NCBI GenBank assembly: GCA_014323865.1
Contig: JACONG010000007.1
Coordinates: 1 to 59,772, forward strand
Direction: 5' to 3'
DNA length: 59,772 nt
Source: Rhodospirillales bacterium
Lineage (GTDB): Bacteria > Pseudomonadota > Alphaproteobacteria > SP197
The notes beneath the pieces are model-generated. The model saw nothing but the letters and a program-made list of their open reading frames with translations, was not told the DNA's origin and ran no database searches. Of the stretch, positions 36,967 to 50,702 are shown in pieces; the stretch's first letter is position 1, and each line of letters starts with the position of its first letter. The translations under genes and the position numbers were made by a program.

Positions 36967-37052
36967 TTGCCAGGCAAGAACACGCTTGTCACAGTGCTGC
37001 TTTGGAGATGTGGACGCATCGCATCCTCGTGCGTGCAGCAGGAGCGCCTCTC

Positions 37053-37949
37053 ATGGACAATCTGGACTTCAGATGGCCCGGTAACTTCTACAAGGGCAAC
37101 ATGCACACCCACAGCACGAACTCCGACGGCAGCCTAGCGCCGGACGCGGTGTGCAATGCCTATCGCGAGAAGGGCTACGACTTCCTCGTGATGACCGACC
37201 ACTTCATGGAGGTCTACGGCTATACGGTGACCGACACGCGGCCCTATCGCACGGACGACTTCACCACGATCATCGGTGCTGAACTGCACGCCCCGGAAAC
37301 CTCAGTGGGCGAGATCTGGCATATCAAGTCGATCGGGCTGCCGTTCGACTTCGAGCCGTTGAGAGACGGTGAGACGGGGCCCGAGATTGCCAGGCGTGCC
37401 CACGAGGCTGGCGCCTTCATTGGCATCGTGCATCCGTCCTGGTACGGCCTGACCCATGCCGACGCACGCGAGCTGCCCTTTGCCCATGCGGTCGAGATCT
37501 ACAACCACGGCAGCGCCGTCGAGGTCGACCGTGGCCACGACTGGCCCTTCCTCGATGTCCTGCTCAACGAGGGCTGGAAGCTCTCGGGCTATGCGGCCGA
37601 CGATGCCCACGAACTGACCCACGACTGGCTCGGTGGCTGGGTGATGGTGCAGGCCGAGGAGAACGAGCCGGAACTCCTGCTCCATAGCCTCAAGGCGGGG
37701 CGTTACTACTCCAGCATGGGACCCGAGATCCATGACATCGCGGTCGAGGACGGCAGGGTCAATGTCCGCTCGTCCGAAGCCAGCGTGATCGCGATCCAGG
37801 GCCGCGGCTCCCGTTCCGGGCGCGAGATGGGCGACTGCATCACCCGCGCCAGTTTCGACCTCTACCCTTTCGAGGACAGCTACTTCCGCATCACCGTGAT
37901 CGATAAGGACGGCAAGCGCGCTTGGTCGAACCCGTACTGGCTGGACTGA
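37053..37949 (+). CDS. PHP-domain metallohydrolase (CehA/McbA family)
   Basis: A 298-residue protein of the polymerase-and-histidinol-phosphatase superfamily. The first metal motif is GNMHTHSTNSDG (His18, His20), followed by FLVMTDHFME (Asp49, His50), IVHPSWYG and SGYAADDAHE with later metal residues. The CehA/McbA subgroup includes carbaryl hydrolases, but most members act on unknown phosphoesters, esters or carbamates. The ATG at 37053 is preceded by GCAGGAGCG. It appears to be transcribed alone, with a hairpin after the stop. No partner gene indicates the substrate. Confidence 0.82.
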   Translation: MDNLDFRWPGNFYKGNMHTHSTNSDGSLAPDAVCNAYREKGYDFLVMTDHFMEVYGYTVTDTRPYRTDDFTTIIGAELHAPETSVGEIWHIKSIGLPFDFEPLRDGETGPEIARRAHEAGAFIGIVHPSWYGLTHADARELPFAHAVEIYNHGSAVEVDRGHDWPFLDVLLNEGWKLSGYAADDAHELTHDWLGGWVMVQAEENEPELLLHSLKAGRYYSSMGPEIHDIAVEDGRVNVRSSEASVIAIQGRGSRSGREMGDCITRASFDLYPFEDSYFRITVIDKDGKRAWSNPYWLD

Positions 37950-38089: not shown

Positions 38090-38756
38090 TCACTTCAGTT
38101 CGCCCGTGTTCTCGTCTCCGGGCGAAGCCCGCTTGGCGTTGAAGTCGCCGATCGAGCCGTAGGTGCTCCATGGCCCGAACCCCATCAGCGCACGTTCATG
38201 ATCGCTCAGTCCCGCGATCACTTCGGATCTGGTTCCATAGGTGAAGTTGAGCAGATGACGGATGAAGGGTGCGGCCCAGTAGGTGGTGATGCCGATGCGC
38301 GATGTGCGGCGGGTGTTGAGGCTGGCGGCATGCCAGGTTCGGCCTTCCCACAGAACGATGCAGCCCGCCGGCGCGATCGCCTGCACCGTGTCGAACGTGG
38401 CTTCGGGATCGGGCTCCACGCCCGAGAGGCGGCTTCCCGGCACCAGGCGCGTGGCTCCGTTCTCGACCGTGAAGTCGGTAATCGCCCACATCACGTTGCA
38501 GATCACGGGCGGGTTGATCGGGCCGTCGGCCGGCACAGGTGGGCCACAGAGCGTCCTGGTCCGTCATGCATCGGAGAAGTGGTCGTATGGCTTCGACGGC
38601 AGGGCAGGGCGTGGCATCCACCATGTAGTCGGGATGGATCGCCATCTCCTTGTTTCCGGGCCAGGTGATGTGCGCCGGGAACTCCGAAGCCTTAGGGCTC
38701 AACGTCGGCCTTGACCCTGTGATGCTGGCGGTGGGTTCAGGTCGGACTGTCATCAC
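38090..38756 (-). pseudogene. Phytanoyl-CoA dioxygenase (PhyH) family gene, frameshifted and shortened
   Basis: The C-terminal half is a good PhyH-family match: VICNVMWAITDFTVENGATR, LVPGSRLSG and WEGRTWHAASLNTRRTSRIG with the distal iron histidine. The N-terminal half is in another frame (SEFPAHITWPGNKEMAIHPD, then TDQDALWPT), and the proximal HxD iron motif cannot be read. The total is about 220 residues, shorter than usual. Its start overlaps the acyl-CoA ligase stop, so it was once the third gene of that operon. Confidence 0.7.
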
Positions 38757-40345
38757 GTCGACTCCCTGTTGCCTCTGGTCTCAAGTTCCCGCTTCAGGGT
38801 CTGTTTGTCGATCTTGCCGATGGGCAGACGTGGAAGCTCTGCGCGGATATCGAAGGTTTTGGGCACCTTGTAGTTGGCCAGGCGCTCACGACACCAGGCA
38901 TCCAGACCGGCTTCGTTCAGCGCTGTTCCTGATCGTGCTTCCACGAACGCATAGCCGACCTCGCTGAATACCTTGTCCGGCACACCGAGAACCGCGACGA
39001 GACCGGTGTCGGGGTGTTCCTCGATCGCGATCTCGACCTCGCGCGGATAGATATTGAAGCCGCCGGAGATGAACATCTCCTTGGTCCGTCCGACGATCTC
39101 CAAGTTGCCGTCGGCCCAGACCTCGACCACGTCGCCGGTGCGAAACCAACCGTCGGCGGTGTAGGCCTTGCGGGTCGCGTCGTCATCGCGGAAGTAACCC
39201 GCCAGCAGCCAGTCGCCGCGCGCCTGAATTTCACCCTGTTCGCCGGGCGCTGCCACGTTGCCCTCGGCATCGGCAACGCGGATGTCGAACCCGGCATGCG
39301 GCTTGCCGATGGTACGCGAGAGCACTTCGAAATCTGCATCGGCCGCGGTGAAGGTGATATAGAGGCCGAGCTCGGTCATGCCGAAGCTGGTGCGCAGGGC
39401 GCAGGGCAGGTCGTTCAGTGTCGCCACCACGTCGGCGGCCATCGGCGCACCTCCCCAAGTCATGAACTTGAGGTTCGAGAGGTCGCGTCGGGTGAGATCG
39501 GGATGGTTCGCCATCATGTGGAACTGGACCGGCGAGCCCAGAAGGTGATCGATCTGTTCCTCTTCGAGCAGGCGCAGCAGGCCGCCGGGGTCGAAGCGGT
39601 CCTGAAACACCAGCGTGCCGCCGGCATAGATGCCGAACACGCCGGTCATGCCGACGCCCGCGATGTGGTTGGTTGGCATCATGTGAAGGATGCGGGGCCG
39701 GTCCATCGGCCAGTGCTCGAGCTCCACCGCGCTACCGGTCAGCAGGGCGCGATGCTTCACCATGGCCGCCTTGGGCTGCCCGGTGGTTCCCGAGGTGAAG
39801 ATCAGCACGGCGGTATCATCGATGGTAACCGATGCGCGCGCCGCTTCGAGCCGGTTGTCGGTGACGTCGTCACCGGCTCTCAGAAAGGCGTCCGCCATGG
39901 TGCCGCCCTCGAGTGGCGCATCAATCGTCACCAGCGTGCGGATCGACGGGACCTCGGCCATGAGGGCCAGCAATTCCTTCTCGCAGTCGCGGCCGTGGAT
40001 GTAGCGGAAGGCTACCAGAACGATGGGCTCGGCAAGCTCCGTGACATGGCGGAACTCAGGCAGCTGGTAACGCGGATGATAGCCGGTCCAGATCGCGCCG
40101 ATCTCGGTCGTCGCCAGCATCACGGTCAGCCACTCGACCGAGGGCGGGCAGAGCATGGCGACGCGGTCACCCTTGCCGACGCCTGCAGCGAGCAGCGCCT
40201 TGGCCCAGCGCGCCATGGCGTCGTCGAGCTGGCCGTAGGTCAGGCGCATCTGGTCGTGGACCGCGGCTTCGCGCTCTGGCTCCCGCGCGGCATGGTGGCT
40301 GACGCACTGGCCTATCCGGACGGCATCCACGGGAAGCGGGATCAC
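38753..40345 (-). CDS. AMP-binding acyl-CoA synthetase
   Basis: A 530-residue adenylate-forming ligase that activates a carboxylic acid with ATP and joins it to CoA. Core motifs: VLIFTSGTTGQPKAAMVKH (phosphate loop), FGMTELGLYITFT, GWFRTGDVVEV, EIVGRTKEMFISGGFNIYP (hinge) and the C-terminal catalytic lysine in LPIGKIDKQTLK. I chose the GTG at 40345 because GCGGAGGCGGC lies just ahead and it overlaps the preceding stop (GTGA); an ATG at 40372 is the alternative. The acid is unknown. Neighbouring TIM-barrel and PhyH genes suggest breakdown of an unusual hydroxylated or branched acid (inference). Confidence 0.88.
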   Translation of the reverse strand: MIPLPVDAVRIGQCVSHHAAREPEREAAVHDQMRLTYGQLDDAMARWAKALLAAGVGKGDRVAMLCPPSVEWLTVMLATTEIGAIWTGYHPRYQLPEFRHVTELAEPIVLVAFRYIHGRDCEKELLALMAEVPSIRTLVTIDAPLEGGTMADAFLRAGDDVTDNRLEAARASVTIDDTAVLIFTSGTTGQPKAAMVKHRALLTGSAVELEHWPMDRPRILHMMPTNHIAGVGMTGVFGIYAGGTLVFQDRFDPGGLLRLLEEEQIDHLLGSPVQFHMMANHPDLTRRDLSNLKFMTWGGAPMAADVVATLNDLPCALRTSFGMTELGLYITFTAADADFEVLSRTIGKPHAGFDIRVADAEGNVAAPGEQGEIQARGDWLLAGYFRDDDATRKAYTADGWFRTGDVVEVWADGNLEIVGRTKEMFISGGFNIYPREVEIAIEEHPDTGLVAVLGVPDKVFSEVGYAFVEARSGTALNEAGLDAWCRERLANYKVPKTFDIRAELPRLPIGKIDKQTLKRELETRGNREST

Positions 40346-41175
40346 GCCGCCTCCGCGTTGAGCACGGCCCATGTCGCACGCGCCCAGTCCTCCAGAATCA
40401 GGGCCTGGTCCCAGCGGTCGGTACCCGTGATGCCGTAGGGCGGCGAACCCAATTCGCAGAGGAAGTTCAGGATTGCGCCGTCAGGCTTGCGTTCATGCCA
40501 CTGGTGTATGGCCTGCTCCCACCAGATGTTGAACAGCGCCACCCATTCGGCGTGCTGGGGCCAGTCGATCGCGATTTGCACCTGCTCACGGGTGGCGATG
40601 CGGCCCTGAAGGCCTGCACAACGTTTGAGCACCTTGTCGAAGGCCGCCCTGTGCACGTCGCCGAGCGGCAGCACGACCTCGCGGCTGACGACGGCATGGC
40701 TCAGGTCGCAGGCGATCTCCATCTCCGGCACGAGGTCCATGACCTGCCCGGTGTGGAAGAGGCCGTTCGTCAGTGTGTAAAGGTGCCGTTCGAAATGCGC
40801 CTCGACCCCAATCTTGTCGGCCAGCGCCAGGCTACGGCAGACATGGTCGGCGCCCTCGTCGGGCGTGTAGGGGGAGACAACCGCGTTGATCGCAACGAAA
40901 CGGCTCCCGAGTTTGTTCGCCATCGCGAAGACGGGTTTCAGGTCCTCCACATCGCAGGGGAAGGCGACCAGGATGTTCTCCAGACCGTATTCGTCGAACA
41001 GTGGCTTGGCCTGTTCGACGGTCGGGAAGTCGTCCGAGACCATGTGGATCGACATGCCGTCGTAGCCCGCCTCCTTGATCATCCGGAACGTCTCGTCGAG
41101 CGTCCATTCCAGGCCGTCAGGTGCGCGTTGTTCCATCGCCCAGCTCGGCTGGAACACCTCCAGCGTGTGACCCAT
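40342..41175 (-). CDS. Xylose isomerase-like TIM-barrel protein
   Basis: A 277-residue protein of the sugar phosphate isomerase/epimerase (AP endonuclease 2-like) family. The barrel pattern shows in ETFRMIKEAGYDGMSIHMVS, then FDEYGLENILVAFPCDVEDL, SRFVAINAVVSPYTPDEGAD and the metal-type acidic and histidine residues in EMEIACDLSHAVVS. A late segment (WVALFNIWWEQAIHQW) is unusual for plain isomerases. The start at 41175 follows GGGGAGAATC. It is translationally coupled to the acyl-CoA ligase, so it may isomerise or cleave a precursor of the acid that is activated. The specific reaction is unknown. Confidence 0.72.
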   Translation of the reverse strand: MGHTLEVFQPSWAMEQRAPDGLEWTLDETFRMIKEAGYDGMSIHMVSDDFPTVEQAKPLFDEYGLENILVAFPCDVEDLKPVFAMANKLGSRFVAINAVVSPYTPDEGADHVCRSLALADKIGVEAHFERHLYTLTNGLFHTGQVMDLVPEMEIACDLSHAVVSREVVLPLGDVHRAAFDKVLKRCAGLQGRIATREQVQIAIDWPQHAEWVALFNIWWEQAIHQWHERKPDGAILNFLCELGSPPYGITGTDRWDQALILEDWARATWAVLNAEAA

Positions 41176-41281
41176 GTGATTCTCCCCGTCTGATCGAAGC
41201 TTAGCGGGAGGGCGTGGACCGGCAAGGCTTGAAGCGACAGGCCAGACGCGCAATGGTCCTCCGAGTCAGAGGATTGCTGCC

Positions 41282-42088
41282 ATGTCCGATCTCGTCAGTC
41301 AGGAAACGATCGACACCTATCAGGCCGACGGCGTCGTCCTCATCAAGAGCCTGTTCCCCGACTGGGTCGAGAGCCTGTCGAAAGGTGTGCAGCAGAACCT
41401 CGATCAGCCCGGCGCGAACGGAAAGCTCTATCACGACGATGGCGGCCGGCTCTTCATGAGCGACTACTGCAACTGGCAGCGCATCCCCGAGTATGAGGAC
41501 TTTCTGCGCCACTCACGCTGTGCCGAGCTGGCAGCCGCGCTGATGCAGTCGGAGACCGCACGTTTGTTCCACGAGCATGTGCTGGTCAAGGAAGCGGGCG
41601 CGACCATCGCCACGCCCTGGCATCACGACCAGACCTACTACTGCGTCGACGGCTGGCAGAACGTGTCGATCTGGATTCCGCTCGATCCCGTGGCGCGCGC
41701 CACCAGCCCCGAGTTCGTCGCGGGCTCCCACAAATGGGGCCGCAGCTTTACGCCCGAGCGTTTCAACACGCAGCCGCTCTACGGCGAAGCCGACACCTAC
41801 GAGAAGCTGCCCGATATCGAGGCCAACCGCGCCAACTACGATATCCGCGGCTTCGATCTGGAGCCGGGCGACGGCATCTGCTTCCACTACCTCACGGTCC
41901 ATGGCGCGCCGGCCAACCGCTCACTCTCGACTCCGCGCCGCGCCGTCTCCGCCCGCTGGATCGGCGACGACGCCCGCTTCGCTACGCGCCCCGGTCCGAC
42001 ATCACCACCGTTCCGCGACGTGGTTCTGCAACCGGGCGATGTGATGGACGCACCGGAGTTCCCGCTGTGCTGGCCTAGGGCGGCGTAA
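41282..42088 (+). CDS. Phytanoyl-CoA dioxygenase (PhyH) family protein
   Basis: A 268-residue Fe(II)/2-oxoglutarate-dependent oxygenase. The iron site is readable: HxD in TPWHHDQTYY (His114, Asp116) and a distal histidine in YLTVHGAPANRS, with a following Arg for 2-oxoglutarate. SIWIPLDPVARATSPEFVAG and SHKWGRSF are typical for the family. It would hydroxylate a small molecule. It is divergent from the ligase operon that carried a second, now broken, PhyH gene, and is followed 25 bases later by the hotdog-DsbA fusion gene. Confidence 0.88.
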   Translation: MSDLVSQETIDTYQADGVVLIKSLFPDWVESLSKGVQQNLDQPGANGKLYHDDGGRLFMSDYCNWQRIPEYEDFLRHSRCAELAAALMQSETARLFHEHVLVKEAGATIATPWHHDQTYYCVDGWQNVSIWIPLDPVARATSPEFVAGSHKWGRSFTPERFNTQPLYGEADTYEKLPDIEANRANYDIRGFDLEPGDGICFHYLTVHGAPANRSLSTPRRAVSARWIGDDARFATRPGPTSPPFRDVVLQPGDVMDAPEFPLCWPRAA

Positions 42089-42113: not shown

Positions 42114-43112
42114 ATGCGCCCCGTCCCTGAAGACCTCGCTCACACGATCCGCTTCGATCCCACGGCCGATGACACCGCCGCTGCGATCGGCAATGTCGGG
42201 GTCGAGGTGGTTTCGACCGTCACCATGATCGTCTGGGTCGAGACGGCCTGCGGGCAGCTTCTGCATCCCCATTTCGAGGAGGGGGAGGCGAGTGTCGGCA
42301 CGCGGGTGGCGGTCGATCACGTTGGTGCGGCCTATGTTGGCCGACCGGTCACGGTCCGCGCCGAAGTCACGGGCACGGAGAGGCGCAAGATCAGTTTTGG
42401 GGTGCGGCTGGAGCAGGACGGCCGCGAGGTTATGCGCGGCGAGCACATCCGCGCGGTGATCGACCTTGAGCGCTTCCTCGATCGTCAGGCGGAACAGCGC
42501 GAACGGTCCGTCGTGCCGTCGGTCACATTCTTCTTCGACGTGCACAGCCCCTGGTCCTATCTCGCGTCGACGCGGATCGACGCGATGGCCCGACGCCACA
42601 ACGCGCCGGTTATCTGGCGGCCGATCCACCTGCCCAAGCTGATGAAGCGCATCGACGGCATGCGGCCAATGGACCAGACCCCGGCACGGGTCGCCTGGTA
42701 CGAACAGGACGTTCACGACCGGATGGCCGAACACGGCCTGGCCTATGACCCCCATCCGGACTATCCGCTGCGACCGTCGCGCGCCTTGCGCGCCTGCGTC
42801 TACGCTGCCGAACAAGGCTGTGCGTCCGCCTTCGTCCAGGCCGTGATGCGCGGCTACTGGTCCGAACATGCCGACATCACCGATCTCGATTGGCTCCAGG
42901 CGGTGGCCGACGCGACCGGCCTCGGCCCACGCGCGATCGCCGAGATCGTCGAGGCTCCGGTCTACAAGCAGGCTGTGGCCGACAACACCGATGAGGCCAT
43001 CGCCGCGGGCGTGTTCGGCGTTCCGAGCTTCCTGTTCGGTGACAAGCTCTACTTCGGTGCCGATCACATGGATATGCTCGAGGCGGCCATGGCACGTGCC
43101 GCGACTGGCTAG
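42114..43112 (+). CDS. Hotdog thioesterase-like domain fused to a DsbA-like (HCCA isomerase/GST-kappa) domain
   Basis: A 332-residue protein with two apparent domains. Residues 1-125 resemble a FlK-like hotdog thioesterase (ETACGQLLHPHFEEGEASVG, then VGRPVTVRAEVTGTERRKIS and FGVRLEQDGREVMRGEHIRA). Residues about 133-330 are a DsbA-fold 2-hydroxychromene-2-carboxylate isomerase-like domain (VTFFFDVHSPWSYLASTRID, with Ser-Pro-Trp in place of a CxxC, and AGVFGVPSFLFGDKLYFGAD at the end). There is no frameshift at the join and spacing is natural, so the fusion looks real. It suggests coupled handling of a CoA thioester and a glutathione-linked isomerisation. The TAG stop is part of a palindromic repeat. 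Confidence 0.78.
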   Translation: MRPVPEDLAHTIRFDPTADDTAAAIGNVGVEVVSTVTMIVWVETACGQLLHPHFEEGEASVGTRVAVDHVGAAYVGRPVTVRAEVTGTERRKISFGVRLEQDGREVMRGEHIRAVIDLERFLDRQAEQRERSVVPSVTFFFDVHSPWSYLASTRIDAMARRHNAPVIWRPIHLPKLMKRIDGMRPMDQTPARVAWYEQDVHDRMAEHGLAYDPHPDYPLRPSRALRACVYAAEQGCASAFVQAVMRGYWSEHADITDLDWLQAVADATGLGPRAIAEIVEAPVYKQAVADNTDEAIAAGVFGVPSFLFGDKLYFGADHMDMLEAAMARAATG

Positions 43113-43162
43113 AGCATATTCCGTTCAGATTGAATCAATCTGAACGGGTGAATCCGCTCTAG
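43109..43162. repeat. Palindromic intergenic repeat (copy 1) supplying two stop codons
   Basis: The unit begins CTAGAGC and ends GCTCTAG, with a central near-palindrome CGTTCAGATTG...CAATCTGAACG. It sits between convergent genes: the fusion gene ends with the TAG at 43110-43112 and the EamA gene with the TAG read from 43161-43159, so the two ends of the repeat provide both stops. A second copy lies at 44551. Confidence 0.8.
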
Positions 43163-44037
43163 ACCTTTCGCGCCAGAAGGACGCTGGCGAGGATGATCAT
43201 GCCGATGCCGATGGCGACCGGCAGCGTCGGGATATCGCCGAACGCGAGATAGCCCAGCACGACAGCGATCGGCAGCGACGAATACTCGAAGGGTGCCACG
43301 AGGCTGGCTTCGCCCTTGCGGTATGCGAGGATGATGAGGGAGTGCGCTGTGCCCGCACTGAGCCCGCCGGCGGCGATCATCAGCCATTCGATGTCCGACA
43401 CCGGCGCCCAGTGACCGGGGAAGGTCAGAACCGGGATCAGACCCAGCAACATGAAGGCGCAGGTCGTATAGAAGGACGTGACCGGTGCGGGTTCGGTCGT
43501 TCCCAGACGGCGGGCGAGGAGTGTCGTGATCGCCAATGCTATCGCACCGCCCACGGCCCAGAGTGCGGCTGGCTGAAACGCCTCGGTTCCCGGCTGCACG
43601 ATCACCAGTGCGCCCAGGAAGCCCAGGCCGATGGCGATCCAGCGGATCAGCGGCACCGTTTCGCCGAGCAGGACCCGTGCCGCGAGTGCCACCAGGAACG
43701 GCGATGAGAAGACGATCGCGGTGGCATCGGCGATGGGCAGCACCTGGATGCACTGAAGGTAGCAGGTGTAGGCCATCGCCATGGAGAAGCCGCGTGCGAT
43801 CTGCGCGCCGGGCCGCCTTGTCCTCAACTGCCGCCATGTCCGCGTGATCTGCAGGGCGATCAGGACCGGCACGAAGGCAAAGATCGTGCGGCACAGCACG
43901 TAGAAGAACGGCGTCTGGTTTTACATGACGATCTTGGCGATGATATCGCCCATGGTGAGAAGGCCGACGCCGGCGATGATGACCGCGATCGCAACTCCGG
44001 AACTGTCGTGCTGGTGCGCCTCGTTCGTGCGGCTCAT
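43159..44037 (-). pseudogene. EamA-family (drug/metabolite) transporter interrupted by TAA
   Basis: The full frame from an ATG at 44037 encodes a 10-helix EamA exporter but contains TAA at 43923-43921, after GVGLLTMGDIIAKIVM. The frame resumes at once with NQTPFFYVLCRTIFAFVPVL and runs intact to the end (GEASLVAPFEYSSLPIAVVL, then GIGMIILASVLLARKV). Only one codon is wrong in about 290. A GTG at 43899 could restart translation, but the product would lack the first helix. A recent nonsense mutation or an assembly error are the main options. Confidence 0.75.
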
Positions 44038-44755: not shown

Positions 44756-46744
44756 TCAGGCGGATTGGTCGAACTGTGCCCGTCTCTTTGTCGCCCACGC
44801 GTTGATCAATCGATCGGCTGTCAAGCCCATGAAGGCGACGCACAAGCCGATGACGAGGCCTTTGCCAGCGTCCTGGAAGGTCAGAGCGCGGAAAATCTCT
44901 TGGCCGAGGTCGCGGGTGCCGATGAATGCGGCGATGATCACCATGAAGAGCGCAAACATGATCGTCTGATTCACGCCCAGCATGATCTCAGGGAAGGCGA
45001 GCGGCAGGCGAACCTTCCAGAGCAATTGGAAGCGGTTGCAGCCCGAGGTCCGTCCGGCCTCCTCAATCTGGCTCGGCACGTTACGCAGACCGAACATGGT
45101 GTAGCGGACGGCGGGAATTGTCGCATATATCACGATCGCGGCGATCGCGGCCATATCGCCGACCCGGAACAGCATGATGACGGGAATCAGGTAGATGAAG
45201 GACGGGAAGGTCTGGAAGGTGTCGCAGGCGAACTGCACGGCCTTGGCGCGCCATTCCGACCGGGCGGCCCAGATGCCGATCGGAACGCCGATTAGGACGC
45301 AGAGCACGACGGCGACGGCGACCATGTAGGCGGTGATCAGCGCGCGTTCCCAGAAGCCCGCGAGCACGATGAACATTATAAAGGCCGAAACCGTCGCGGC
45401 GAGGCGCCAGCCCCCCAGAACCCATCCTGCCAGGCCGGTGATTGCAACAACGGCAGGCCATGGCATCCACTGAAATGCCGTTCGGACCGGGATCAGGACG
45501 TGGAGCAAGAGACCGTCGCGGACGATCTCGAGCGCATCGAAGAAGTGGACCTGAATGTAATCGACGATGCCGTCCCACAGCGGCGCCGTTGTCACTGCAG
45601 CCGAACGCGGCCACTTCACGGCCCAGTCGGTGATCAGCGCCGCACCGATTGAGGCGGCGACAACGCCGAGGGCAGCGCAGATATAAAGGTGGCGCTTCCA
45701 CCAGGGGCCATTGGGCGCATGCTCGGGCTGACGCTGAGCGAGCGTCTGGCTGAGCCGGTCGAGCGTAATCGCCATCAGCACGATCGCGACGCCGATTTCC
45801 AGCGCCTGGCCGATGCGCAGCGACTGCAGGCGGAACAGCAGGTCGTTGCCCAGGCCCTTGGCGCCGATGAACGAGGCGATGACGACCATGGCGAGGCACT
45901 GCATGATGACCTGGTTGACGCCGACCATGATGGCGTTGCGCGCTGCCGGGATCTCAACCTTCAGCAGCATCTGGTGTTTCGTGCAGCCGCCCATGACACC
46001 GGCCTCGCGCACCTCCGGCAAGACGCCCTTCAGACCGAGCAGGGTGAGACGCGCCATCGGGGGCAGGGCGAACAGGATCGTCGCGATTGCGCCGGCCTTG
46101 TGGCTGACGCCGATGAACACCGCGACGGGGATAAGGTACGAGAAGTGCGGCATCGACTGCATCACGTTGAGTAATGGTGTCAGGATGCGTTCGAACCATT
46201 GCCTCTTGTAGGCCAGCAGGCCAAGCGCGATGCCGAGCAGGCCGGCGACCGGTGCCGCGACCATGACCAGCGAGAAGGTCAGCATCGACGGCTTCCACTT
46301 GCCGAAGACGGCGAAGTAGACAAAGCAGCCGCCCGCCAGCAGCGCCATGCGCCAACCGCCGATCCACCAGCCCAGCACGGCCGCCAGGCCCGCGATCATG
46401 ACCCAGGGCAGAGGCGGCAGCTTCCAGGGCCTTTTGAAGCCCGAGATCAGGACGCCTTCGGCGAAATCGAGTGGGATCTCGATGGTTTCCGCCATGAAGC
46501 GGGTGGTGTCCTTGAATGTAAAGAGACCGAGAATCTCTTCGTTGCTCAGGACTTCGACAATGGCGTTGATCCAGTCGATGAAGGGAACCGTCCACGTTTC
46601 GGGCGGAACAATCGCCCAGTCGGGCATAACAGGACGCAGCGTCAGCAACGCAACAAAAGGGAGGAAGACCAGACCGAACTGACCCAGCAGGCGCGCGCGT
46701 GCGGCGCCTTCATTGTCATGCTCGACGGTGTCGGCGATGGCCAC
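44756..46744 (-). CDS. proW: Glycine betaine/proline ABC transporter permease, tandem-duplicated form
   Basis: A 662-residue membrane protein made of two complete ProW-like permease modules. Each has its own EAA loop: EVREAGVMGGCTKHQMLLKV near residue 250 and QIEEAGRTSGCNRFQLLWKV near residue 570, each followed by a VNQ(V/T)IM segment. A normal ProW is about 300-350 residues and works as a homodimer; here the dimer appears fused. The start is a GTG at 46744, two bases after the stop of the ATPase gene. Together with the divergent binding-protein gene it forms a QAT-family importer for betaine-type osmolytes. Confidence 0.88.
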   Translation of the reverse strand: MAIADTVEHDNEGAARARLLGQFGLVFLPFVALLTLRPVMPDWAIVPPETWTVPFIDWINAIVEVLSNEEILGLFTFKDTTRFMAETIEIPLDFAEGVLISGFKRPWKLPPLPWVMIAGLAAVLGWWIGGWRMALLAGGCFVYFAVFGKWKPSMLTFSLVMVAAPVAGLLGIALGLLAYKRQWFERILTPLLNVMQSMPHFSYLIPVAVFIGVSHKAGAIATILFALPPMARLTLLGLKGVLPEVREAGVMGGCTKHQMLLKVEIPAARNAIMVGVNQVIMQCLAMVVIASFIGAKGLGNDLLFRLQSLRIGQALEIGVAIVLMAITLDRLSQTLAQRQPEHAPNGPWWKRHLYICAALGVVAASIGAALITDWAVKWPRSAAVTTAPLWDGIVDYIQVHFFDALEIVRDGLLLHVLIPVRTAFQWMPWPAVVAITGLAGWVLGGWRLAATVSAFIMFIVLAGFWERALITAYMVAVAVVLCVLIGVPIGIWAARSEWRAKAVQFACDTFQTFPSFIYLIPVIMLFRVGDMAAIAAIVIYATIPAVRYTMFGLRNVPSQIEEAGRTSGCNRFQLLWKVRLPLAFPEIMLGVNQTIMFALFMVIIAAFIGTRDLGQEIFRALTFQDAGKGLVIGLCVAFMGLTADRLINAWATKRRAQFDQSA

Positions 46745-46746
46745 GA

Positions 46747-47769
46747 TCAGGCACCCGGGGCAAACAATGCGTTGATCACGTTCTTGCGGCTGACGGAACC
46801 GACGACGGCGTCGTTCGCACCGATGACGCGGACCGGCTTGTCCTGTTCCAGGATCATCGCGGCGGCATCGGCGATCCGGTCGTTCTCATGGACCGTCTGG
46901 TCGGCCGCCTCGCCGTCGGTTGCAGCGTCCATGATCGTGTGGATGCGCAGGATCTTCTCCCGCGGGACGTTCTTGGTGAACTCGGCGACATAGTTGGTTG
47001 CGGGCGCGGTCACGATCTCCTCGGGTGTCGCGAGCTGTTGGATCTGACCTTCGAACATGATGGCCACTCGGTCGGCCAGGCGGATGGCTTCGTCGAAATC
47101 GTGTGTGATGAAGACAATGGTCTTGTTCAGCATCGACTGCAGGCGAAGGAACTCATCCTGCATTTCATGACGAATCAGGGGGTCGAGTGCGGAAAATGGC
47201 TCGTCGAGAAACCAGATATCGGGTTCGACCGCCAGGCTGCGAGCGATGCCGACGCGCTGCTGCTGGCCGCCGGAAAGCTCACGTGGGTAGTAACGTTCAC
47301 GACCTTTCAGGCCGACCAGTTCGATGATCTCCATCGCCCTTTTCCGGCGGGCGGCTTTGTCGATGCCCTGAACCTCGAGCGGAAACGCGACGTTCTCGAT
47401 GACCGTGCGATGCGGCAGCAGGGCGAAGTGCTGGAAGACCATGCCCATCTTGTGGCGACGCAGATCGATCATCTCCCTTTCGCTTGCCCGGGCGAGATCC
47501 TGGCCGTCGATGAAGACCTCGCCGGCCGTGGGGTCGATCAGGCGTGACAGGCAGCGCACCAGGGTCGACTTGCCCGAGCCGCTGAGTCCCATGATGACGA
47601 GGATCTCTCCCGACGAGACATCGAAGGAGGCATCGCGCACGGCCGAGATGTGACCGCTGGCTTTCACCGCATCGGGCGGCGGATTACCACCGTGTTCACG
47701 CAATACGCCCGTAGGATCAGGGCCGTAGAGTTTCCAGACTCCACGGCAGGAGATTTCCGCCTCTGACAC
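46747..47769 (-). CDS. proV: Glycine betaine/proline ABC transporter ATP-binding protein
   Basis: A 340-residue ATPase of the ProV/OpuAA type. Motifs: Walker A IMGLSGSGKSTLVRCL, signature LSGGQQQRVGIARSL, Walker B IWFLDEPFSALD and H-loop ITHDFDEAIRLADR. The C-terminal 60 or so residues form a CBS-like module (HENDRIADAAAMILEQDKPV, then VGSVSRKNVINAL), which in relatives gates transport by ionic strength or nucleotides. An insert near residues 10-40 (TGVLREHGGNPPPDAVKASG) is typical for this subfamily. The GTG start at 47769 is preceded by AAAGGGGG. It energises the fused permease encoded just downstream. Confidence 0.9.
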   Translation of the reverse strand: MSEAEISCRGVWKLYGPDPTGVLREHGGNPPPDAVKASGHISAVRDASFDVSSGEILVIMGLSGSGKSTLVRCLSRLIDPTAGEVFIDGQDLARASEREMIDLRRHKMGMVFQHFALLPHRTVIENVAFPLEVQGIDKAARRKRAMEIIELVGLKGRERYYPRELSGGQQQRVGIARSLAVEPDIWFLDEPFSALDPLIRHEMQDEFLRLQSMLNKTIVFITHDFDEAIRLADRVAIMFEGQIQQLATPEEIVTAPATNYVAEFTKNVPREKILRIHTIMDAATDGEAADQTVHENDRIADAAAMILEQDKPVRVIGANDAVVGSVSRKNVINALFAPGA

Positions 47770-48010
47770 CGCGCCCCCTTTATGTTTTGTTGGTCGCTGT
47801 TCTGCTTACGGCCACGATGCCCCGTGACTCCTCAAGCGTCAAAAAAGAATGATTCCGCCTTGCATTTCTAGTCAAAAGGACGATGATGGTCTAACGCTGC
47901 CGTATCAATTCATACCAATCACAATGGTGGCAGTGTGTGCCCGATTCCGAAAGAGGAGTGGGTGCATGGTGTTTTACGCTCACGTCTTGGAGACAAAGGG
48001 AGACTGAACC
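47770..48010. promoter_or_regulatory. Divergent promoter region between proV and the binding-protein gene
   Basis: This 241-base gap separates two divergent genes of one transporter and must hold promoters for both. It is AT-richer than its surroundings (CAAAAAAGAATGATTCCGCC, then CATTTCTAGTCAAAAGG). I cannot name a convincing -10/-35 pair or operator. The binding-protein gene has AAGGGAGACTGAACC before its ATG. Confidence 0.4.
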
Positions 48011-48961
48011 ATGCGTATCGTGAAGGGGTTTGCCGCAGTGGCGGCAGGTCTGATGCTTGCTGCGGGAACGGTCAGCGCGGACAGTGACGATCCGATCAAG
48101 ATTCCGATCCACAACTGGTCGAGTCAGATCGTCGGTTCCTATATTTTGGGCGCTATCTTTGAAGACGCCGGCTACGAAGTCGAGTACATCCCGGCCGACA
48201 GCCAGGTGGTCTACACGTCGATGTGCGAAGGCGACATCGACATCGTTCATGAGGTTTGGCAGGGTGCTTTCGGCGTCGCTTTCGAGAAGGTGGTCGACGA
48301 GGGCTGCGTGATCGACGCCCAGACCCACGACGCCAAGACCCGTGAAGAGTGGTGGTATCCGGATTACGTCGAGGAGGCCTGCCCGGGTCTGCCCGACTGG
48401 CAGGCTCTCAACGGCTGCGCCGAGATGTTCTCCACGCCCGAGACCGCGCCGAGGGGTCGCTTTCTGGCCGGTCCGGTCGACTGGCTCAAGCATGATCAGG
48501 AGCGTGTCGACGGCCTCGGTATGAACTTCGAGGTCGTAAATGCCGGTTCGGCTGCCGCTCTGTGGGCCGAACTCGATGCGGCTTCGTCGCGCGGCGAGCC
48601 GATCGTGCTGTTCAACTGGACGCCGAACTTCATCGAGGCGGTCTATGATGGCAAGTTCATCGAGTTTCCGGAGTACGGCGAGGGCTGCCTCGACGATCCG
48701 TCCTGGGGCATGAACCCGGATGCCACTTACGACTGCGGTAACCCGAAGGGCGGTTATCTCAAGATCGGTGTCTGGGAAGGCTTCCCCGACAACTGGCCCG
48801 GTGCCTACGAGATCGTGCAGAAGATCAATTTCTCGAATCTCGACATCGCGGTGATGTCCAAGCTCGCCGACATCGACGGTATGGAGCCCGAAGAGGCTGC
48901 TGAGCAGTGGCTCGCCGACAACGAAGATACCTGGCGCGGTTGGATTGGTGCCGGTTCCTGA
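48011..48961 (+). CDS. proX: Glycine betaine/proline ABC transporter substrate-binding protein
   Basis: A 316-residue periplasmic protein of the OpuAC/ProX family. It has a clear signal peptide (MRIVKGFAAVAAGLMLAAGT) with cleavage after VSA near residue 23. The mature part is rich in tryptophan (PIHNWSSQIVGSYILGAIFE, VHEVWQGAFG, REEWWYPDYV, LFNWTPNFIEAVYDG), the kind of aromatic box that holds quaternary ammonium groups by cation-pi contact. Paired cysteines may form disulphides. It is divergent from the ATPase and permease genes, and a rho-independent terminator follows. Choline or betaine is the likely ligand. Confidence 0.88.
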   Translation: MRIVKGFAAVAAGLMLAAGTVSADSDDPIKIPIHNWSSQIVGSYILGAIFEDAGYEVEYIPADSQVVYTSMCEGDIDIVHEVWQGAFGVAFEKVVDEGCVIDAQTHDAKTREEWWYPDYVEEACPGLPDWQALNGCAEMFSTPETAPRGRFLAGPVDWLKHDQERVDGLGMNFEVVNAGSAAALWAELDAASSRGEPIVLFNWTPNFIEAVYDGKFIEFPEYGEGCLDDPSWGMNPDATYDCGNPKGGYLKIGVWEGFPDNWPGAYEIVQKINFSNLDIAVMSKLADIDGMEPEEAAEQWLADNEDTWRGWIGAGS

Positions 48962-48982
48962 TCTTCGTTTTTGAGTGATCTC

Positions 48983-49014
48983 AAGGGGTCGTCCGGCATC
49001 GGGCGGCCCCTTTT
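48983..49014 (+). terminator. Rho-independent terminator after proX
   Basis: A 13-bp stem (AAGGGGTCGTCCG with CGGGCGGCCCCTT, two G-U pairs) encloses a GCAT loop and is followed by TTTTCTCGTTCTT. It lies 22 bases after the stop codon. Confidence 0.85.
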
Positions 49015-49103
49015 CTCGTTCTTGCATTTGATGTCTTTGTGAGTAGAGGCTTTTCCAAGGTGCGCGAGTCTGCGGGCCAACAATATCGATGAGGAGGCTA
49101 GTG

Positions 49104-50702
49104 ATGAGCGACAAACAGCTGAACTGGATGGTTGAAGAGGTCAAGGTCGGCAAGATAGACCGGCGCGAGTTCATCGGCCGTGCCGGTGCCCTAGGCGTCA
49201 CCGCGACGGTCGCAACCGGCATGCTGACCACCGCCGGTGTCGCAGAGACACCGATCAAGGGCGGCGAAGTCAATGTCGCCGGCGAATACACGGGTGCCGA
49301 AGAAACCTTCGACCCGACCAAGATGACCAACAATACCGACATTCAGCGCGCCTATCAGGTCTACAACCGGCTGACCAATCTCGACCGCGACATGAATGTT
49401 GTGCCCAACCTGGCAGTCGAGTGGGAAGCGGCCAATCAGGCCAGTGAATGGACCTTTGTGCTGCGTGATGGCGTCGAGTTCCACAACGGCAAGACGCTGA
49501 CCGCCGACGACGTGATCTATTCGCTCAACGAGCACATTAAGGAAGGTTCGGAATCGCCGGCGAAGCCGCTTCTCGAACCGATCATCGACATGCAGTCCGA
49601 TGGTCCCGACGTGGTGAAGATAACGTTGAACTCCGGCAATGCGGACTTGCCGGTCACGCTGGCGCACGACTTTCACATGTCCATCGTTCCGGAAGGCTGG
49701 GTCGACGGTGACGTGGTGGTCGGCACCGGCCCCTACAAGCTGACTGAGTTCACACCGGGCCTTGCGTCGGTCGCTGAGAAGTTCGGCAACTACTGGAACG
49801 AGAACGCGGGCCACGTCGACGCGTTCATCACCCAGGGCATCCCCGACAACGCCGCCCGTTCAAGCGCGTTGCGTGCTGGCGACATCGACATCGGTCCCAG
49901 CGTCGAGCCGCGCGTCGCCTCGCTCCTGGAGCAGTCGTCCGACGTCAAGGTTCACTCCACGCCGTCGGGCTCCTGGATGGCCTGGATCATGGCAACCAAC
50001 CGGGCGCCGACCGACGACAATAATCTGCGCCTTGCGATGAAGCACTGCGTCGACCGCGATTTCCTAGTCGAGAACGTGCTGCTTGGCCACGGCAAGGTCG
50101 GCAACGATTTCCCGGTCAATCCGGGTCTGCCGACCTATTCCAACGACATCCCACAGCACAACTACGATCCCGAGAAGGCCAAGTGGTACTGGGACAAGGC
50201 CGGACTCAGCTCGATCAAGCTGGCCGTTTCGAACGCGGGTCATGCCAATGCGATCGATGCCAGCATCATCCTTCAGGAGAACGCCCGTGAAGCCGGGATC
50301 GACATCGCGCTCAATCGCGTGCCCGATGACGGCTACTGGAGCCACACTTGGATGCAGGTGCCGTTCTGCGTGACCGGCTGGAACTCGCGTCCGACGGCCG
50401 ATGCCATCCTCACGATTGCGCTGGCCTGCGGCGGCTCGTGGAACGAGACCTTCTGGTGCAACGAGCGCTTCGACGAACTGCTCGTCATGGGCCGTCTGGA
50501 GACGGACCTCGCAAAGCGTCAGGAGATCTACCATGAGGCGTGCACCATCCTGCACGACGAGGGTGGGGTCTTCCTGCCGTTCTTCTCGAACTACATCGAG
50601 GCCACGACCTCACGAATCCAGAACTATCACGGCAGTTCCGCGTTCTCGATGGGTGCGGGCTGGCCCTACGAAGAGGTTTGGATTGACGATTCGATGGCCT
50701 GA
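49104..50702 (+). CDS. ABC transporter substrate-binding protein, family 5 (peptide/opine type), Tat signal
   Basis: A 532-residue extracellular solute-binding protein of the DppA/OppA family. The N-terminus carries a twin-arginine-like motif (KIDRREFIGRAGALGVTATV) and a probable cleavage site near AGVAET. Body motifs: TFDPTKMTNN region, YNRLTNLDRDMNVVPNLAVE, WEAANQASEWTFVLRDGVEF with HNGKTLTADDV, and VGTGPYKLTEF. The ATG at 49104 is preceded by GATGAGGAGG. No family 5 permease or ATPase genes follow; a terminator comes next. It must use a transporter encoded elsewhere. Its position between the betaine transporter and an MttB-family gene suggests an amine or opine-like ligand (inference). Confidence 0.87.
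   Translation: MSDKQLNWMVEEVKVGKIDRREFIGRAGALGVTATVATGMLTTAGVAETPIKGGEVNVAGEYTGAEETFDPTKMTNNTDIQRAYQVYNRLTNLDRDMNVVPNLAVEWEAANQASEWTFVLRDGVEFHNGKTLTADDVIYSLNEHIKEGSESPAKPLLEPIIDMQSDGPDVVKITLNSGNADLPVTLAHDFHMSIVPEGWVDGDVVVGTGPYKLTEFTPGLASVAEKFGNYWNENAGHVDAFITQGIPDNAARSSALRAGDIDIGPSVEPRVASLLEQSSDVKVHSTPSGSWMAWIMATNRAPTDDNNLRLAMKHCVDRDFLVENVLLGHGKVGNDFPVNPGLPTYSNDIPQHNYDPEKAKWYWDKAGLSSIKLAVSNAGHANAIDASIILQENAREAGIDIALNRVPDDGYWSHTWMQVPFCVTGWNSRPTADAILTIALACGGSWNETFWCNERFDELLVMGRLETDLAKRQEIYHEACTILHDEGGVFLPFFSNYIEATTSRIQNYHGSSAFSMGAGWPYEEVWIDDSMA

Follow-up and report, generated by a model that had tools for sequence, protein, structure and literature searches.

A hotdog thioesterase-HCCA isomerase fusion with relatives in histidine-utilization operons: a possible route for cis-urocanate isomerization

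The window, a stretch of 59,772 nucleotides from a Rhodospirillales bacterium, carries a gene whose product joins a FlK-type hotdog thioesterase domain to a domain resembling 2-hydroxychromene-2-carboxylate (HCCA) isomerase and GST kappa (Table 1). The latter belongs to a rare, well-supported clade. Relatives of the fusion are often embedded in histidine/urocanate utilization (hut) operons and coupled to an acyl-CoA ligase; both associations are new here. We give about an even chance to the reading that the fusion is a two-step acyl-CoA enzyme which, with the adjacent ligase, would carry out an ATP-driven isomerization of an acid, most likely cis-urocanate in the hut-linked members.

The gene is a single uninterrupted frame, open for 332 codons from its ATG. 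The N-terminal part matches the FlK family of Pfam with 88.7 bits (E-value 3.1e-25, cut-off 27) and the C-terminal part the DSBA family with 135.5 bits (E-value 2.5e-39, cut-off 25.6). An AlphaFold2 model built with 27 homologues has a mean pLDDT of 93.4 and a pTM of 0.63, and drops below 50 only at residues 126–130, which form the linker between two folded domains. Fold matches were obtained with Foldseek and VIA-align. The N-terminal domain superimposes on FlK (3kx8; Z 19.9, rmsd 1.5 over 129 residues). The C-terminal domain, spanned over its full length by a DsbA-like thioredoxin fold with a helical insertion, matches HCCA isomerase (2imd; Z 25.0, rmsd 2.1 over 194 residues), GST kappa (1r4w; Z 24.5) and FrnE (Z about 21). 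These assignments are far beyond chance and bear out the frame and the two domains that an earlier note had read from this DNA.

Residues 38–131 of FlK align to residues 31–124 of the fusion with a constant offset of 7, so that T35, E43 and H69 correspond to T42, E50 and H76 of FlK. We take Glu50 and His76 to be members of the FlK triad, and T42 mutants are named among the matched FlK structures. The fusion thus shares with FlK (3kx8, 3p3f) the hotdog fold and a T/E/H triad at identical spacing, and the three positions are kept in 22/22 full fusions (position 35 being Thr in 19 and Ser in 3). Unlike FlK, the hotdog is fused to an isomerase domain, and the position of Phe36 is occupied by Gly in 21 of the 22 fusions and by Ile in one. 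Neither the fluorine gate nor a fluoroacetyl-CoA substrate is therefore expected.

In the C-terminal domain, S145, P146 and P304 are conserved in all 22 full fusions. S145 aligns with the serine of the SPFS motif of 2imd, and the motif S145-P146-W147 is SPW in 21 fusions and SPF in the remaining one; there is no CxxC. The earlier note had found the replacement of CxxC by Ser-Pro-Trp remarkable. It distinguishes the fusions from DsbA disulfide oxidoreductases, but it is the ordinary signature of the HCCA isomerase/GST kappa family and not a lost CxxC. The fusion further resembles NahD (2imd) and GST kappa in the fold of the whole C-terminal domain, in the cis-Pro loop GVP and in the Asp of the GxDR/H motif (D317). 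It differs from them in being joined to a hotdog and in its sequence, the C-terminal domain being 27–28% identical to the nearest solved structures. The clade motif HPxYPLR(P/N)SRALR is missing from 2imd in the alignment with the window protein and, unlike in the case of NahD, no naphthalene genes occur among the fusion neighbours examined.

Table 1. Features of the window, and gene orders around relatives of the fusion.
Feature or gene order	Position or locus	Strand	Remarks
Fusion gene, FlK-type hotdog thioesterase and HCCA-isomerase/GST-kappa-like domain	42114..43112	+	332 aa, ATG start
FlK hotdog domain, residues 17-117	42162..42464	+	Pfam PF22636; FlK 3kx8 fold match
FlK-type catalytic triad span	42216..42320	+	T35 42216-42218, E43 42240-42242, H69 42318-42320
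HCCA-isomerase/GST-kappa-like domain, DsbA fold, residues 137-326	42522..43091	+	Pfam PF01323; 2imd fold match
S145 codon, place of the NahD/GST-kappa thiol-activating Ser (SPW motif)	42546..42548	+	Alignment to 2imd
PhyH-type Fe/2-oxoglutarate dioxygenase	41282..42088	+	25 bp upstream of the fusion, same strand; Pfam PhyH E 2.5e-24
Xylose-isomerase-like TIM-barrel protein, weak	40342..41253	-	PF01261 19.8 bits, under the cut-off of 31.1
AMP-forming acyl-CoA ligase	38753..40372	-	Pfam E 9.8e-77; clade differs from that of hut-linked ligases (tree)
Second PhyH gene, seemingly disrupted by a frame change	38090-38755	-	148-aa piece at 38090..38536
PHP-domain-like protein	37002..37949	+	PF02811 weak, 21.4 bits, cut-off 26.4
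EamA-family transporter	43159..43899	-	Convergent with the fusion; kept adjoining in several relatives
hutU hutC hutI, then hutF hutH (SDR) ligase C-domain	L058, L060, L061, L062, L064, L069, L198		
hutF hutH SDR fusion hutG	L054		
hutI hutG ligase fusion	L201		
hutI hutG fusion	L200		
Full hut set beside ligase and fusion	L199		
hutU hutD hutC hutF, NCS1 permease, ligase, fusion	Raoultella plasmid NZ_CP145180.1		
LysR, NCS1 permease, ligase, fusion alone	Paraburkholderia plasmid		

Full-length open frames were found in 10 aligned relatives and at 21 loci outside the window, with identities to the window fusion going down to 41%, and the alternative of two separate genes, divided by a stop at the join, was rejected, no split pair having been found. 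Nor does a detached hotdog gene accompany the genes that consist of the C-terminal domain only: a search of 11 such loci with 22 hotdog sequences gave no hits at E ≤ 0.01, while the same search found a match in 6/6 fusion loci used as positive controls. In the maximum-likelihood tree the C-terminal domains of the clade are monophyletic (32 of 53 rows, support 100/100). Twenty-three of these rows are fused; the nine others are one group of eight hut-linked rows and the single row L056, a copy from genome G015. Fused forms occur on all deep branches of the clade, and hut-linked forms on the first two. Parsimony thus makes the fusion old, with at least two losses of the hotdog, and the fused state looks ancestral. 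Rows L039, L043, L044, L048, L065 and L147 were omitted from this tree as partial, broken or near-duplicates of a kept row, except L039, which was simply not added; L018 and L019 stand for G015 and G012. The genes of L048 (G002) contain many broken frames, an assembly error being the probable cause.

The clade is sparsely distributed. A fusion or C-terminal domain orthologue is present in 15/16 genomes of the window's own family (G004 is the one without), and the sole match in a phylum-wide sample of 398 genomes is the window's own genome. In the order of G767 the clade was found in 11 of the 397 genomes sampled. In addition, 57 plasmid records carry a match to at least 80% of the fusion protein; the plasmid rows listed are from Klebsiella and Raoultella, with one Paraburkholderia record, and are annotated only as 'DsbA family protein'.

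For 13/32 tree rows (L054, L058, L059, L060, L061, L062, L064, L069, L159 and L198–L201) the fetched locus also contains hut genes. They include hutF, hutH, hutU, hutI, hutC and hutG, in the gene orders given in Table 1. Hut linkage is absent from every row of the window family and from 10 further rows. Gene identities were checked with NCBIfam: hutU, hutC, hutI, hutF and hutH of L069 all score over the cut-off, and the HutC of L199 was identified in the same way. In a sample at the level of the order, not selected for hut, the four new loci that could be judged are all hut-linked (the fifth, G910, is at a contig edge). The linkage is therefore no product of the motif scan.

On the Raoultella plasmid only fragments of hutH are present, so that urocanate, and not histidine, seems to be the target of the cluster. 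At least 80% of this 13-kb stretch is found in 36 plasmid records, and no DNA similar to its NCS1-ligase-fusion part was found in E. coli genomes. Co-occurrence with hutU across genomes was rejected as proof because it is weak: hutU is found in 9/11 carriers and in 207/397 genomes of the whole sample (Fisher p 0.064). hutU was matched in each of the 16 genomes asked behind named clade loci, above the cut-off in 15, but half of the order has hutU too. The argument consequently rests on gene linkage.

The second association is with the ligase. In most hut-linked rows the fusion or C-terminal domain gene directly follows an acyl-CoA ligase gene, and there is a 4-base overlap between a start codon and the ligase stop in 12/12 ligase-fusion or ligase-C-domain loci examined (L057, L058, L060, L061, L062, L064, L069, L146, L159, L198, L199 and L201). 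The hut-linked ligases form one clade of their own (14 rows, support 100/99). This type, searched for with one hut-linked ligase as query, turned up in 8 of the 237 genomes sampled. All 8 belong to the 11 genomes that carry the C-domain clade; Fisher values near 1e-12 were set aside, as they presuppose that the 237-genome sample lies within the 397-genome sample. The two partners may also be apart, as in G756 and G758, where the ligase follows hutH in a hut operon and the fusion is on another contig. Among 22 genomes or records asked, 11 have a hut-type ligase at 50% identity or more and G003 has a match of only 41%; none was found in G000, G001, G007, G008, G755, G759, G760, G761, G768 and G807. 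The smallest unit, found in L146 and L159, consists of the NCS1 permease, the ligase and the fusion, with neither dehydrogenase nor oxygenase.

A permease, a ligase and a fusion on their own can do no more than import an acid, make its CoA ester, perform thiol chemistry on it and hydrolyze the product. In hut operons, cis-urocanate is the acid for which a change of geometry is enough; it arises under UV light from trans-urocanate, an intermediate of histidine breakdown. This leads us to propose the following route. In hut-linked members the ligase would convert cis-urocanate to cis-urocanoyl-CoA. The C-terminal domain would then catalyze the glutathione-dependent cis/trans isomerization of this α,β-unsaturated acyl-CoA to trans-urocanoyl-CoA: the glutathione thiolate, held by S145, would add to the β carbon, the single bond would turn and glutathione would leave. 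Finally, the FlK-type hotdog would hydrolyze the thioester and release trans-urocanate for HutU, so that together with the ligase a carboxylic acid would be isomerized at the expense of ATP. Since free carboxylates accept Michael additions poorly, activation by CoA is chemically sensible. We infer the isomerase chemistry, the use of glutathione and the substrate from the folds, the residues and the gene neighbourhoods. In the members that consist of the C-terminal domain only, which keep the ligase and the hut linkage with no hotdog nearby (11 loci), the thioesterase step would be dispensable or done elsewhere.

The net reaction of this route is that of the cis-urocanic acid isomerase of bacteria, an activity reported by Hug et al. 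1999, to judge from the title cited in PMC9821622 and PMC5988872. No gene or mechanism for this activity, and no paper linking urocanate to CoA or to the isomerase family, was found in the literature searched, mostly outside subscription papers. The HutC regulons as described in section 12 of PMC5343134 include no such ligase, isomerase or thioesterase; the same section lists COG1457 (purine/allantoin-like) permeases whose substrate is unknown. The urocanate transporter in the parts of PMC12977541 and PMC7319117 consulted is HutTu. The clade and its dedicated ligase may, somewhat short of an even chance, be the first genetic candidate for bacterial cis-urocanate isomerase activity. With the same reserve, we would describe it as a CoA- and glutathione-dependent, ATP-driven switch, with isomerase and thioesterase fused, that recycles a UV photoproduct and is encoded in hut operons as well as on enterobacterial plasmids. 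Such a gene set can be expressed and deleted, which makes the question of the bacterial isomerase directly testable. The cis-urocanate reading would also give a function to the extra ligase and 'DsbA family protein' of hut operons, whose present annotations are generic. cis-Urocanate, made from the trans form by ultraviolet light, is discussed in PMC5988872, as far as consulted, as an immunosuppressive skin molecule.

Several observations speak against the cis-urocanate scheme. The SDR gene that separates hutH from the ligase in L060, L061, L062, L064 and L198 has no role in it (in L058 and L069 the SDR is absent from this gene order). The window fusion is not hut-linked and its genome, G000, yielded no hut-type ligase; the same search found none in G760 and G807, the genomes of the hut-linked fusions L054 and L200. 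Moreover, one hut lineage has lost its hotdog, and at the level of genomes hutU accompanies the clade only weakly.

The SDR genes would fit better with the same enzyme logic of ligase, isomerase or GST-like domain and thioesterase acting on another histidine-derived or imidazole acid, a possibility we regard as real though clearly the less probable. Conceivable, at similarly modest odds, are imidazole propionate or lactate and a urocanate that is N-methylated or hydroxylated; the SDR or PhyH would contribute a further step, and in the window the PhyH, ligase and TIM-barrel genes might then, again doubtfully, supply the substrate. A PhyH gene directly after hutU in L202 and L249, the pairing of PhyH with the fusion in most of the window family, XDH-type molybdenum hydroxylase subunits ahead of PhyH-fusion in four loci and two MTTB genes beside the hut genes of the window genome all point in this direction. 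However, the unit of L146 and L159, having no dehydrogenase or oxygenase, leaves room only for import, activation, isomerization or conjugation, and release. It is unlikely that the C-terminal domain is instead a glutathione transferase or lyase that makes or breaks glutathione-urocanate (β-thioether) adducts while the hotdog clears stray acyl-CoA, in a detoxification rather than a salvage. Glutathione transferase forms such adducts of cis-urocanate, and the match to GST kappa agrees with this, but the coupling to one ligase clade and the placement in catabolic operons argue for a productive step. A redox protein of the DsbA/FrnE kind, or a scaffold, in which the hotdog is a relic and no pathway-specific reaction is catalyzed, is suggested by the Pfam name and the FrnE matches but is highly improbable given the missing CxxC and a FlK triad kept in all full fusions despite their divergence.

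For the window copy the cis-urocanate reading is less certain. It lies in a branch of 16 rows (support 95/91) without hut linkage, and hutH, hutF, hutI and hutU of its genome are on another contig, C10. The window ligase was rejected as an orthologue of the hut ligases by the tree (30–34% identity). Both the PhyH dioxygenase and the ligase that the earlier note placed beside the fusion are confirmed by Pfam; its TIM-barrel gene is present too, with a Pfam match that stays under the cut-off. The three genes occur together in L037, L040, L041 and L056, and the TIM-barrel-like protein and second PhyH, a 349-aa protein in the relative L041, are part of the neighbourhood of the window branch. The fusion adjoins PhyH in most members of the window family and in L051, L052 and L055, in part with a ligase of the other clade. 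The suggestion of one pathway for an unusual acid thus gains from the conserved neighbours, and from the hut-operon relatives, which give urocanate as the likely acid in those organisms.

A related PhyH (about 50% identity) directly follows hutU in G807 and in G756 (L249), and the fusion of G807 lies in the same hut cluster as its hutU-PhyH. By this bridge the window substrate may still be urocanate-like. The window copy is best described as a derived member of uncertain substrate, perhaps urocanate-like; going by descent only, it would perform the same two-step chemistry on urocanoyl-CoA or a related β-(hetero)aryl-acryloyl-CoA. PhyH was rejected as a pathway marker, since close relatives are found in most carriers but mostly away from hut. 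Thiourocanate (ergothioneine) was likewise rejected as substrate in the window genome, whose HutU is a plain urocanate hydratase (952 bits, cut-off 375) scoring below the cut-off with thiourocanate models.

Some further observations concern the surroundings of these genes. The closest solved structure to the window PhyH is MysH. The PHP-domain-like gene stays by the cluster in L037, L040, L041 and L048, and downstream of the cluster (window 44756-50702) lie a family-5 solute-binding protein and a glycine-betaine-type ABC transporter, the latter made up of a permease frame, an ATPase and an OpuAC binding protein. Two genes of the MTTB family (trimethylamine methyltransferase-like; L161:67-3220) directly adjoin the hut genes of G000 on C10 and might point to methylated histidine betaines. 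In L249:1-1791 (G756:C28) the end of hutU is followed by a PhyH gene and a MaiA-type gene, a maleylacetoacetate isomerase (258.8 bits, cut-off 171) from another family of glutathione-dependent cis/trans isomerases. Three subunits of an XDH-type molybdenum hydroxylase are found upstream of PhyH-fusion in L042, L044, L045 and L046, one sub-branch of the window family, and in L045 a ThiS/MoaD-like protein also precedes the pair. In the same sub-branch, G007 has a second, divergent HutU paralogue (L164:10404-12014), which scores 584, 570 and 586 bits with the models of urocanate, thiourocanate and S-methyl thiourocanate hydratase, respectively.
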